Below are positions 36,713 to 40,220 of a DNA stretch of 42,865 bases, in pieces (position 1 is the first letter of the stretch; every line of letters begins with the position of its first letter). The notes below the pieces were generated by a model. That model worked only from the letters and a program-made list of their open reading frames with translations, made no database searches and was not told the origin of the DNA. The translations under genes and the position numbers were made by a program. This DNA is from a virus: positions 1 through 42,865 of IMG/VR virus record IMGVR_UViG_3300008259_000048; one strand, given 5' to 3'.

Positions 36713-36901
36713 TTAGTAAGTACCATTATCAATAACCATTCTTAACCAGAATGGACCAAAGTTAGCATATAATCCATGTTGTTGTGGATCCATATCTGTT
36801 GGTTTCAATAGTTGAAATCGAAAACTCCAGTGATATGGATTGAAAATAATTCCTATCCATACACCAGAATATTTTAAGTAGTTAATTAAGTTCTTTAACA
36901 T
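36713..36901 (-). CDS. Small conserved phage protein
   Basis: A 62-residue protein with NPYHWSFRFQLLKPTDMDPQQHGLYANFGPFWLRMVIDNGTY. The pattern P…..W…..P.D.DP..H….FGP.WLR..IDNG is a signature of a small conserved phage family of unknown function. It overlaps the clpP stop by 20 bases and lies before the membrane protein gene. Aromatic-rich; no membrane helix stands out. Confidence 0.6.
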   Translation of the reverse strand: MLKNLINYLKYSGVWIGIIFNPYHWSFRFQLLKPTDMDPQQHGLYANFGPFWLRMVIDNGTY

Positions 36902-37442
36902 CGTCGCATAGTCCTAACTTTTTAGCTTCTAATGGGCTCAACCACATATCCTGTGGCGGTAACAATAACTCTTTAATTTTCGCCTCAGACAATCCACTAC
37001 ACTTTTTATAGTGAGCAATCATCTTCTTAGTAGTCAAATCAAACTCTTTAACAGTTGCAAATAACTCATGCTCTTTTCCAAACGCACCCCATGAATACTG
37101 GTGCGATAAAATCGATGTATTGGGTGTCAGAAGTCTCTTACCTTTTTCACCAGCAATAAAAATCATAAGTCCAGCAGAAGCAATCTGACCAAGACCAATT
37201 GTACGAATTGGAATGGCAGAGCCACGCATGGTATCAATAATAGCAAATGCTGCATTCAAGTCACCTCCAGGAGAAGTGATAATCAAATTTAATAGATCAG
37301 GTCTTTCTTCTTGGAAGTTACATTCAAAAATCCACTCAACTGTTTGTTTAGCAGTTTGAAGGTTAATTTCTTCCATCAGCAAGAAGAACGAGTGTTGTGC
37401 GTCCTCTGTCTCGTTCAACTGTAGGTTTAATTTGCGCATCAT
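36882..37442 (-). CDS. clpP: ClpP-like serine protease
   Basis: I choose the ATG at 37442 (186 residues, MMRKLNLQLN…) because AGAGGAACAT precedes it; a more upstream start at 37478 is possible. ClpP/crotonase fold landmarks are ITSPGGDLNAAFAIIDTM, GQIASAGLMIFIAG and TPNTSILSHQYSWGAFG. The catalytic triad is intact: S89, H114 and D165 (in PPQDMWLSPLEAKKLGL). Phage ClpP may work in head maturation or host-protein turnover with the host ClpA/X unfoldase; which is not clear. No prohead context is nearby. The 5' end overlaps the SleB-like gene by 80 bases. Confidence 0.85.
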   Translation of the reverse strand: MMRKLNLQLNETEDAQHSFFLLMEEINLQTAKQTVEWIFECNFQEERPDLLNLIITSPGGDLNAAFAIIDTMRGSAIPIRTIGLGQIASAGLMIFIAGEKGKRLLTPNTSILSHQYSWGAFGKEHELFATVKEFDLTTKKMIAHYKKCSGLSEAKIKELLLPPQDMWLSPLEAKKLGLCDDVKELN

Positions 37443-37950
37443 ATGTTCCTCTTTCTCTATAAAATATATGTCTTCCAATAACTACAGTCTTCTGCAGTTT
37501 CCATCTAGGATTCACGTAATCGGCATGATAATATAATGCACCTTTTGTGATATCTTTCAATTTTTCATAATTAGCGTATACATACAACGCTGCTTCACGT
37601 GATAGTTCATACTGTTGTTTCTGTCTATTAGTAATTTTATTTTCACACATCCATGTGAACTGACATGTGTAGTTATTCTTTTGTTTAACTACACTGCAAA
37701 TATCTTTTGGGAATCTTGGGTCTTGTACTCTATTCAATGTAACGAATGCCACCGCCATTCGTCCCTGTTCTGCTTCATAACCAGCTTCATGATACACATT
37801 GTCTGCGAGACAATCAATTTCTTTTCTTGCTTCTTTTGTTAGTTGATGATATTCAATATCTAGTACTTTATCTGATGAGAACGATGTTGTTGATACACTT
37901 AAACAACTGACGATTAATAATGTTATTAGTATTAGTATGCGCTTATGCAT
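37363..37950 (-). CDS. SleB-like cell wall hydrolase, exported, possible lipoprotein
   Basis: A 195-residue protein of the hydrolase_2/SleB family: DCLADNVYHEAGYEAEQGRMAVAFVTLNRVQDPRFPKDICSVV, then CQFTWMC and ALYYHADYVNPRW…IGRHIFYR. E55 in YHEA is the likely catalytic acid. The N-terminus is a secretion signal (MHKRILILITLLIVSC) whose end, IVSC, also fits a lipobox, so the enzyme may be anchored to the outer membrane. It would cut glycan strands of peptidoglycan, acting in lysis besides the GH19 endolysin. AAGGAG precedes the ATG. Confidence 0.85.
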   Translation of the reverse strand: MHKRILILITLLIVSCLSVSTTSFSSDKVLDIEYHQLTKEARKEIDCLADNVYHEAGYEAEQGRMAVAFVTLNRVQDPRFPKDICSVVKQKNNYTCQFTWMCENKITNRQKQQYELSREAALYVYANYEKLKDITKGALYYHADYVNPRWKLQKTVVIGRHIFYRERGTYDAQIKPTVERDRGRTTLVLLADGRN

Positions 37951-38351: not shown

Positions 38352-38573
38352 TTATTTAGGTGTTTCTACCTTTTTCTTTGGAGTTGGTTTGTTACCTTTT
38401 GGTGGTGGAGGACATTTACCTTTCTTATCCTTTTTGACGCAGTTATCATTCTCAACAGGTTTACCTGCATCTGCTTTAGTGACAGCTGGTGTTGCAACGA
38501 CTGGTTTGGTTTCTGCTGCAGATGCAACTGTCATCAAACCGATTGATAAAAATAAAACGCTTAGTAATCTCAT
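38352..38573 (-). CDS. Small exported Lys/Pro-rich protein
   Basis: A 73-residue protein with a clean signal peptide (MRLLSVLFLSIGLMTVASA). The mature part is rich in Lys, Pro, Val and Thr, with CVKKDKKGKCPPPPKGNKP holding two cysteines. It would be a short, positively charged periplasmic peptide. AGGAGAACAT precedes the ATG. It lies just downstream of the tmRNA and may be read through from its promoter. No family is recognised. Confidence 0.6.
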   Translation of the reverse strand: MRLLSVLFLSIGLMTVASAAETKPVVATPAVTKADAGKPVENDNCVKKDKKGKCPPPPKGNKPTPKKKVETPK

Positions 38574-38589
38574 ATGTTCTCCTGTTAAT

Positions 38590-38891
38590 AGATGGTAGCT
38601 TATTCTGTTACGAGGAAAGCTACCGAAACCCTAAGCAGTGTTTAGGCTGCTAATGCGAACAGTTCGTCGTTTGCGTTTACGTTGTTTTACTTTTAGCGAG
38701 TATCTGTCTCGAGTTGTCCATCTTCTTACTTATTGCTCTGTCGAAACCTAGTCACCCCCATCAGAAGTATATTCTGTCATCGTTTTTGCTACGCTGGTAA
38801 CGACCAAGACCTCAAAGAATACGCTTCTGGTGGAGGTGGGGAGAATCGAACTCCCGTCCAGCACACCTTTCGGTCAACTTCAAACAACCAT
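38590..38891 (-). ncRNA. ssrA: Circularly permuted (two-piece type) tmRNA, ssrA
   Basis: On the minus strand the 3' acceptor part comes first, ending in an encoded CCA (3' end at 38828) after a T-arm with a GGGAG/CTCCC stem (38836-38858). An intervening segment follows (38760-38827). The 5' part then begins at 38759 with GGGGGTGACTAGG and carries the tag frame at 38642-38674 (ANDELFALAA, stop TAA). The acceptor stem GGGGGTG pairs with CACCTCC, with one G·U pair at position 3, the alanine identity mark. A downstream stem (38594-38624) closes the 5' part. This order is the permuted arrangement, matured into two chains. tmRNA rescues stalled ribosomes and tags the incomplete protein. Confidence 0.88.
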
Positions 38892-38897
38892 ATCACT

Positions 38898-38926
38898 ATT
38901 ATACATCATATATTCTTACAATTCAA
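38898..38926 (-). promoter_or_regulatory. Sigma70-type promoter of the tmRNA
   Basis: On the minus strand TTGAAT, 17 bases, TATAAT. It ends seven to eight bases before the expected start of the acceptor part. It lies in the gap between the tmRNA and the exported-protein gene at 38932-39246, so the tmRNA has its own promoter. Confidence 0.65.
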
Positions 38927-38931
38927 ATTAT

Positions 38932-39246
38932 TTATCGTTGAGCACTGACACCAAACGATGGATCACTGCCAGATTTTTCTTCACCAGCACCCAATACACA
39001 TGCTAATCTGGAATCATATTCCACCATAGTCCATGAACGAGTTTCTTTGTTCATTAGTAGTGTCATGTGAGTATTGTGCACTGTCTTTCCAACCCAAACT
39101 GGTTTCTCATTATGGGTATTTGAGAAGTAACCCATTACTGCTTCTACTTCAGAGCACTTCATTGGTTTAGTTAAATCGACAATGCTCTGTGCTGATGCTA
39201 AAGTGTTGAAGCAAAATAAAAATGCTATCGTTGAAATGTATTTCAT
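38932..39246 (-). CDS. Small exported protein
   Basis: A 104-residue protein with a signal peptide (MKYISTIAFLFCFNTLASA). The mature part has MKCSEVEAVMGYFSNTHNEKPVWVGKTVHNTHMTLLMNKETRSWTMVEY and C at LACVLGAGE. The two cysteines may form a disulfide in the periplasm. I recognise a small envelope-protein type that appears in phages and aquatic bacteria, without a known function. Confidence 0.6.
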   Translation of the reverse strand: MKYISTIAFLFCFNTLASAQSIVDLTKPMKCSEVEAVMGYFSNTHNEKPVWVGKTVHNTHMTLLMNKETRSWTMVEYDSRLACVLGAGEEKSGSDPSFGVSAQR

Positions 39247-39253
39247 TTGATCC

Positions 39254-39970
39254 TTAGATATTGTATTGGTTTCGATAGTCCATTCTCAATTTCCTAAATC
39301 CAGCTATCCAATTATCACGTTTCTCTATGAACAATCGAGGGAAGTCGTTGTCAACTCCCATTATAATCACAAGTCTTCCAATTGGAATTCCTGTGCGCTC
39401 TTCAAAAGCTACTGCATATGCAGCAGTTTGCATAAAGTACTGATGGATATCATCTCTGTCTTTCGGTTTTGATGATGTCTTAAAATCAATAACAGATAAC
39501 TTACCTTGGAACTCTGCAATACAATCAACTGTACCAGCAACCTGTAAAAAATCAGAGTAGAGTGGTGTTTCTAAACAATGAATGTTATCAATGTCATCTA
39601 ACCATTCTCGCATCGACCCAAACATCTCTGCATCAGATATAAGTGGGCTGGCATCTCTTCCAAGCAAATAGTTTTCACAGAGTGTATGGATTCTTGTTCC
39701 ACGTCCTGATGCTTTTGCAGATACTCTGTTAGCTTCTTCTTCACCGACTCTTCTTCGCCATTCCATGATTCCTTTTTTTGTTTGGAGTCCTGTAACTGTG
39801 GTGACGCTAGGATAGGCTTTACCTGATGGTGTTTTGTATAGACGTGTTCCATCGGATTGTGTGTCACGTTCAAGTTTATCCCAATCATGATGTATAAAAT
39901 TCTTTAATTTAGACTGAGAAACTGCTTCCGCAACCACATGTGGATTTGGCGTTTGGATTTGATATAACAA
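39254..39970 (-). CDS. PD-(D/E)XK exonuclease
   Basis: A 238-residue nuclease of the PD-(D/E)XK (Cas4/RecB-like) type. Motifs are H95 and E99 in GRGTRIHTLCENY, D149 in GTVDCIAEF, and D162/K164 in LSVIDFKTSSK; Q181/Y185-like residues follow in the QTAAYA segment. The family is frequent in marine T4-like phages and may act in recombination or host DNA breakdown. It starts with TTG at 39970, with AAAAGGA seven bases upstream, all inside the iscA-like gene (62-base overlap). No unambiguous partner is seen. Confidence 0.85.
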   Translation of the reverse strand: MLYQIQTPNPHVVAEAVSQSKLKNFIHHDWDKLERDTQSDGTRLYKTPSGKAYPSVTTVTGLQTKKGIMEWRRRVGEEEANRVSAKASGRGTRIHTLCENYLLGRDASPLISDAEMFGSMREWLDDIDNIHCLETPLYSDFLQVAGTVDCIAEFQGKLSVIDFKTSSKPKDRDDIHQYFMQTAAYAVAFEERTGIPIGRLVIIMGVDNDFPRLFIEKRDNWIAGFRKLRMDYRNQYNI

Positions 39971-40220
39971 ATTGTGATCCTTTTAATTTATCGCTAGTAA
40001 AATCTATAGTAGCATTTTCAAAATATTGCATACTTAAAGCATCAACCAAAAGATTATCAATAACGAAATCATCTTCTTCTTTATTTTCTTCAAGTGTAAA
40101 TCCATAGTTAAATCCAGAACATCCACCACCTTCTATAAATGCTCTTACATATTTCATAGATGGCTCATCCATTAAGATCTCATCTAGTTGAGTCTTTGCG
40201 GATTCTGTTAAAGTGATCAT
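39909..40220 (-). CDS. IscA/HesB-type Fe-S cluster carrier
   Basis: A 103-residue A-type carrier with the three conserved cysteines: C34 in GGGCSGFNYGF and C95/C97 in TCGCGSSF. The length and the MITLTESAKTQLDEIL start match IscA/ErpA. Such proteins pass Fe-S clusters to apo-proteins and are a known auxiliary gene in aquatic T4-like phages. It lies between endolysin and nuclease genes. A cluster-needing phage enzyme, perhaps the Cys-rich GP88-like protein, is a possible client, but that is speculation. Confidence 0.92.
   Translation of the reverse strand: MITLTESAKTQLDEILMDEPSMKYVRAFIEGGGCSGFNYGFTLEENKEEDDFVIDNLLVDALSMQYFENATIDFTSDKLKGSQFVISNPNAKSTCGCGSSFSV

Follow-up and report, generated by a model that had tools for sequence, protein, structure and literature searches.

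A complete beta-type two-piece tmRNA upstream of a ClpP gene in a T4-like phage lineage, whose relatives have candidate protein genes inside the intervening segment

tmRNA releases stalled ribosomes and marks the incomplete protein for degradation, and its two-piece form is already known from phages. One was described in 2022 in the OM43 phage Melnitz, and the same study counted 53 two-piece molecules among 133 unique phage tmRNAs (2021 count), 50 of the 53 being aquatic (PMC9004378). Older phage tmRNAs have been listed (PMC4131195), and 79 phage tmRNA sequences are given in a further study (PMC11915505). Methylophilales phage Melnitz and Pelagibacter phage Mosig resemble the virus studied here in being T4-like and aquatic and in carrying a complete permuted tmRNA, for which, as here, a role in keeping translation going has been proposed (PMC9004378). 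The one-piece tmRNAs of mycobacteriophages Bxz1 and Wildcat and of Bacillus phage G are likewise phage-borne and contain a tag frame, but they have the standard gene order and a single chain (PMC4131195). The bacterial counterpart is the betaproteobacterial two-piece tmRNA (RF01850), which shares with our locus the gene order, the tRNA-like domain, the tag type, the last pseudoknot and a TTGA...TATAAT stretch.

We analysed a 42.9-kb record of an uncultured T4-like virus (hereafter the window). Its minus-strand gene at about 38594-38926 is a complete circularly permuted (two-piece) tmRNA of the beta type. The only tmRNA gene that ARAGORN found in the window is of the permuted kind (38551-38920, minus strand) and encodes the tag ANDELFALAA. 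In cmscan, RF01850 (beta_tmRNA) scored 135 bits at 38586-38940 (gathering score 84, E 3.4e-41) and RF04321 (tmRNA_permuted) scored 128.8 bits at 38642-38889 (gathering score 47). A preliminary description, made by reading the sequence, had proposed a permuted tmRNA with the acceptor half first, and the covariance models bear this out. From 5' to 3' the gene consists of the promoter, the acceptor half, the intervening segment, the mRNA half and the last pseudoknot (Table 1). The acceptor stem has seven pairs, GGGGGTG/CACCTCC with G3:U70, and its two strands lie in the permuted order; the T-arm and the tag frame with its stop are also as first described. The tag has a GCN resume codon, an (A)LAA end and an in-frame stop. 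The ends of the intervening segment pair with each other and prolong the acceptor stem, and the fold together with both acceptor strands has a predicted energy of -33.7 kcal/mol.

Given the published phage two-piece tmRNAs, the window gene belongs to an already known kind. The preliminary description had called such a gene rare in phages; the published count of 53 and the permuted tmRNAs in 197 IMG/VR loci that we fetched by tmRNA-pattern, ClpP and gp32 searches speak against rarity. The window gene differs in detail from each described system. The Melnitz tmRNA is of the alphaproteobacterial type and tied to a glutamine riboswitch, whereas that of the window is of the beta type and gave no riboswitch match with cmscan. 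In the window an endolysin and a ClpP follow the tmRNA, and ClpP is unmentioned in PMC9004378. Compared with the betaproteobacterial tmRNA, the identity is about 0.7, the terminator hairpin is missing, and the intervening segment is 68 nt long versus 25-43 nt in the sampled Burkholderiales hosts where it was readable.

Table 1. Features of the tmRNA locus in the window, and coordinates of the endonuclease-bearing tmRNA loci among its relatives.
Feature	Position	Strand	Basis or remark
Sigma-70-type promoter, TTGAAT-17 nt-TATAAT (probable)	38898..38926	-	Scan, 10/12 matches; relatives; RF01850
Acceptor half: P2 5' strand, T-arm, acceptor 3' strand, encoded CCA	38828..38889	-	RF01850 and RF04321 alignments
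Intervening segment, 68 nt, expected to be excised	38760..38827	-	Sequence; fold; closing helix
5'/mRNA half, from G1 of the acceptor stem (38759) to the last pseudoknot helix	38594..38759	-	ARAGORN, cmscan, alignment; 3' end inferred
Tag reading frame GCA..TAA, ANDELFALAA*	38642..38674	-	ARAGORN
Last pseudoknot: AGGG (38632-38629)/TCCT (38616-38613) and GGTAGCT (38624-38618)/AGCTACC (38600-38594)	38594..38632	-	Alignment
73-aa ORF with signal-like start, Shine-Dalgarno AGGAG	38352..38573	-	Starts about 20 nt past the tmRNA helix, no terminator between
Cell-wall hydrolase (endolysin)	37363..37950	-	PF07486 E 4.7e-24; phrog_938 endolysin
ClpP-type serine protease	36882..37478	-	PF00574 E 2.3e-30, 106 bits; solved ClpPs, best 2f6i E 3e-18
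HNH-bearing tmRNA loci of relatives	L423 5886-6538; L494 9721-10373; L510 7507-8159; also L469, L512

The structure is maintained among viral relatives. An alignment was made of the window with 39 non-redundant relatives, 40 viral sequences in all, and pairs were scored for the structure derived from the window sequence. Paired cells amounted to 95.8%, versus 86.4% in shuffles and 46-59% (maximum 58.7%) with slid partners. Two-sided changes occurred at 23 of 41 pairs, and the covariation score was 0.286 against 0.114 in shuffles, a test that relatedness can inflate, and at most 0.085 in the slid controls, which preserve relatedness. Helices 1-3 of the acceptor half covary in this alignment. 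The acceptor stem (helix 3) was paired in 99.3% of cells with two-sided changes at two pairs, and G3:U70 was kept in 40/40 sequences. Eight sequences have GGGGATG/CATCTCC in place of GGGGGTG/CACCTCC, a C-G to U-A change on both sides, and another group has GGGCCTG/CAGGTCC (L645), G3:U70 being retained in both cases. The helix closing the intervening segment carries two-sided changes at all five of its pairs. The two tmRNA halves covary across the intervening segment.

Disruption of the pseudoknots had been named as a finding that would speak against a functional tmRNA; the last pseudoknot is preserved. Its GGTAGCT stem has two-sided changes at 5/7 pairs and its AGGG stem is invariant except for one cell in 40 sequences, so that this pseudoknot is supported in part by covariation and in part by invariance. 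In the PK1 region before the tag, a hairpin is paired in 83.8% of cells and shows covariation, a result that covers a single hairpin of PK1. The tags are similarly constrained: among the 197 viral permuted tmRNAs, a set partly gathered by tag pattern and hence including loci selected on the tag, 180 tags begin with AND and 181 end with ALAA. Atypical tags were seen in L195 (ANDAFFGEVRLAA), L193 (ANDAFYFEDLRLAA), L085 (ANVSTFKFWQSPVSVAANDEAFALAA) and L067 (ANAANDEVYALAA).

The promoter assigned to the gene in the preliminary description fared less uniformly. The scan by itself is no better than chance (9 found versus 8.6 expected). The promoter is supported nevertheless, because TATAAT is kept at the equivalent position in 27 of 40 relatives and the RF01850 model itself includes the TTGA...TATAAT stretch. 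The window tmRNA therefore probably has its own promoter. A 3' terminator hairpin is not essential for being a tmRNA. The intrinsic terminator hairpin of the RF01850 consensus is absent in the window, being deleted in the Rfam alignment and not found by scan, and no minus-strand terminator was found by scan between the tmRNA and clpP.

The tmRNA heads an operon-like run on one strand, in the order tmRNA, small ORFs, endolysin and ClpP. The 73-aa ORF next to the tmRNA had no Pfam or PHROG match. The ClpP gene lies about 1.1 kb downstream on the same strand with the endolysin between. Aligned to 2f6i, its product has Ser, His and Asp at matching columns with the motif positions intact; its best PHROG match is phrog_94. 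The preliminary description had suggested a link between the tmRNA and ClpP in degrading tagged proteins. Among 95 viral loci that contain the pair, a set partly selected by ClpP, all but one (94) have ClpP downstream on the tmRNA's strand, at a distance of 0.1-2.6 kb save one at 6.6 kb. Of 70 loci found by tmRNA pattern only and having at least 3 kb downstream, 24 had ClpP within 3 kb and 46 did not. These counts indicate that the linkage is a trait of one phage lineage; with 24/70, ClpP does not accompany the permuted tmRNAs of phages universally. A few close ClpP loci have no nearby tmRNA (L242, L245, L251); together with the tmRNAs without ClpP, they show that the two genes are separable. 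The conserved synteny gives the ClpP link a firmer basis than the preliminary description could offer; degradation of the tagged proteins by this ClpP is a putative function. No report of tmRNA-ClpP synteny was found in the open-access literature searched. Also on the minus strand of the window, at 39909-40220, is an iron-sulphur cluster biosynthesis-type protein (PF01521) adjoining an exonuclease and a GH19-type hydrolase.

The partners needed for trans-translation were sought in 15 long relatives (103-174 kb) drawn from loci found by the tmRNA, ClpP or gp32 searches. The tmRNA was present in 15/15 and ClpP in 14/15, whereas SmpB was found in 0/15 and ClpX in 0/12 tested. The absence of both from these relatives suggests that the phage would depend on host SmpB and ClpX.

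We consider it very probable that the gene is a beta-type two-piece tmRNA, inherited in a T4-like phage lineage and acting in trans-translation with host factors; alanine charging, ribosome rescue and proteolysis of the tagged protein are what its anatomy would predict. Transcription from the sigma-70-type promoter would give a precursor containing the acceptor half, the intervening segment and the mRNA half. Host tRNA-processing enzymes would then excise the intervening segment and leave two chains joined by the acceptor and P2 helices, steps that are established for the family and presumed to apply here. The stem with G3:U70 would be charged with alanine by host AlaRS, and host SmpB would deliver the tmRNA to stalled ribosomes, which would resume on GCA and add (A)ANDELFALAA. 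The LAA end would route the tagged product to ClpXP. The phage would contribute the RNA and ClpP from one operon-like gene run and leave SmpB and ClpX to the host. The benefit would most likely be that ribosomes are kept cycling when phage nucleases and fast mRNA turnover generate many non-stop complexes; more proteolysis may be a second benefit. Why phages carry tmRNA becomes testable by deletion in any cultivable relative.

Another proposal, which we regard as possible though doubtful, is that the main purpose of tagging is the breakdown of proteins of the host, or of selected ones of the phage, by a phage-adapted ClpXP in which phage ClpP would replace or mix with host ClpP and receive tagged proteins from host ClpX. 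The conserved order on one strand and the intact Ser/His/Asp positions of the window ClpP are what such a system would predict, and a recycling role has been put forward for the Melnitz tmRNA (PMC9004378). Trans-translation, however, tags anything that is stalled and does not choose host proteins, the 46 tmRNA-selected loci manage without ClpP within 3 kb, and phage ClpP-fold proteins are often head-maturation proteases, to which the phrog_94 match is relevant. It is improbable that the RNA is a decoy that titrates SmpB, EF-Tu or AlaRS and blocks host trans-translation instead of performing it. There is a precedent in mycobacteriophage DS6A, whose tmRNA consists of the tRNA-like domain alone and reportedly inhibits that of the host, possibly through titration of SmpB (PMC4131195, PMC11915505), but a decoy needs no tag frame, and the resume codon, tag, ALAA end and stop are conserved in the phage genes. 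Least credible, and already contradicted, is the view that the gene has no function for the phage, having either been acquired recently from the ssrA of its present host or entered the contig as host DNA in a chimera: the beta-type model does fit best and the promoter layout is like that of bacterial beta ssrA genes, yet identical or near-identical loci exist in other viral contigs, the synteny with phage genes is conserved, compensatory changes are present, and the host tmRNAs form a separate group.

The comparison with host ssrA bears this out. Beta permuted tmRNA was above cut-off in 15 of 399 Burkholderiales genomes, and all of these sampled tmRNAs cluster apart from the phage ones, with at most 0.74 identity to the window gene, in a tree built from some 300 nt and a restricted sample of hosts. 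The closest viral loci are 100% (L179) and 93% (L180) identical to the window tmRNA. The separate grouping and low host identity do not support the recent capture from the host that had been suggested at first, and with the near-identical viral relatives they indicate that the gene has long been resident in phages. The window tmRNA used as a query against the 399 genomes gave matches of about 30-50 nt only, the tag pattern ANDELFA had no match in the bacterial genome collection, and the T-arm pattern was found there at only 13 scattered loci. The region had no near relative among the named phages: the sole megablast hit was a 1% match, with Marine virus AG-345-L05, and a distant blastn search with the tmRNA yielded nothing beyond short matches. 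ARAGORN additionally called permuted tmRNAs at places with no annotated tmRNA in Synechococcus phage BUCT-ZZ01 (L680, 1286-1704), Ruegeria phage RpAliso (L682, 1441-1784) and Stenotrophomonas phage DLP_6 (L684, 1478-1821). The window tmRNA is a genuine, selectively maintained gene, as its anatomy, the selection on it and its synteny attest. Rather than being a chance capture, it has long belonged to a large lineage of phages in which selection preserves its pairing and its tag, and the phage keeps it beside ClpP while leaving SmpB and ClpX to the host. The first interpretation is partly supported overall: it identified the gene correctly, overstated its rarity and its capture from the host, and offered a reasonable conjecture on the link with proteolysis.

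The intervening segment varies among the relatives from about 25 to >480 nt, and in some it appears to hold a protein gene; the 68-nt segment of the window has no nested ORF. Typically, an AAGGA Shine-Dalgarno abuts the CCA, and an ORF starting with ATG then occupies the segment, its TGA stop usually lying one base ahead of the mRNA half. We found it in 49 loci, with 30 distinct peptides in 18 families (blastp, E 0.001), including L190, L195, L204, L185, L419, L447, L588, L444 and L555. These loci are IMG/VR viral contigs, nearly all metagenomic, and the nested genes are known from sequence alone. In unselected loci the pattern occurred in 7 of 81 distinct segments, whereas 200 dinucleotide shuffles gave 0.2 on average and never more than 2. 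Purifying selection was measurable in two families (L190/L419, pS 0.71 and pN 0.27; L525/L596, pS 0.52 and pN 0.05). The surrounding gene scored above the gathering score as permuted tmRNA in 15/15 loci tested first and 10/10 tested later. Many nested peptides are short and hydrophobic (L045, L283, L431, L435, L555). Their relatives were sought with degenerate DNA patterns, and the small proteins had no acceptable Pfam or PHROG match. It is likely, judging from these patterns, that protein genes have come to nest in the intervening segment of the relatives, with a single transcript yielding both the tmRNA and a small mRNA. If confirmed, this would be a new gene arrangement, with protein genes in the discarded part of a non-intron stable RNA gene. 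No report of protein genes in tmRNA intervening segments was found in the literature searched; PMC11915505 mentions one intervening sequence with a tRNA gene, called unique, and one with a repeat, and no protein genes. By eye, no Shine-Dalgarno-led nested ORF was seen in the segments of the cultivated phages RpAliso, DLP_6, JWDelta and BUCT-ZZ01. The pattern CACCTCCACC-AAGGA-ATG was found at four places in the 399 Burkholderiales genomes, with an ARAGORN permuted tmRNA at none.

In predicted folds the nested Shine-Dalgarno was paired in 24/24 segments examined, fully in 22, in part because the segment ends must pair. The Shine-Dalgarno would lie in a helix continuing the acceptor stem, where folding of the precursor may mask it until excision of the tmRNA exposes it; expression of the nested protein would then be coupled to tmRNA processing. 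Alternatively, it could be used before the second tmRNA half is made. The MFENWHW family, a small W-rich membrane-like protein, departs from the usual ending. Inside the segment (L525, L544, L576, L596, L533, L609, L666) its ORF continues into the mRNA half, where it terminates after 30-66 nt, so that cutting would leave the ORF without a stop codon; in L647 and L650 the protein is encoded just upstream of the tmRNA. Altogether, two nested families also occur outside the segment, directly upstream of the tmRNA (L647, L650, L667, L668, L671) or elsewhere (L677).

One nested gene encodes a 156-aa HNH homing endonuclease inside a 483-nt intervening segment, found as one identical sequence in five contigs (Table 1). 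The protein matched phrog_655 (E 6.7e-15), with Pfam HNH just below cut-off, and the tmRNA around it scored 62 bits as permuted tmRNA in the three contigs tested. The arrangement recalls the group I intron-bearing tmRNA, in which the removed segment likewise hosts an endonuclease gene, although there the endonuclease gene sits in a self-splicing intron of the T-loop, and in L423, L494 and L510 it sits in the intervening segment that separates the halves of a permuted gene (PMC11915505). The endonuclease, together with the two families found both inside the segment and outside it, suggests that the segment may be a safe landing site for mobile genes. Two further intervening segments are tRNA-like, that of L240 (6251-6648), where ARAGORN called a tRNA-Tyr (gta), and that of L256 (5815-6212), which contains a T-arm-like sequence.
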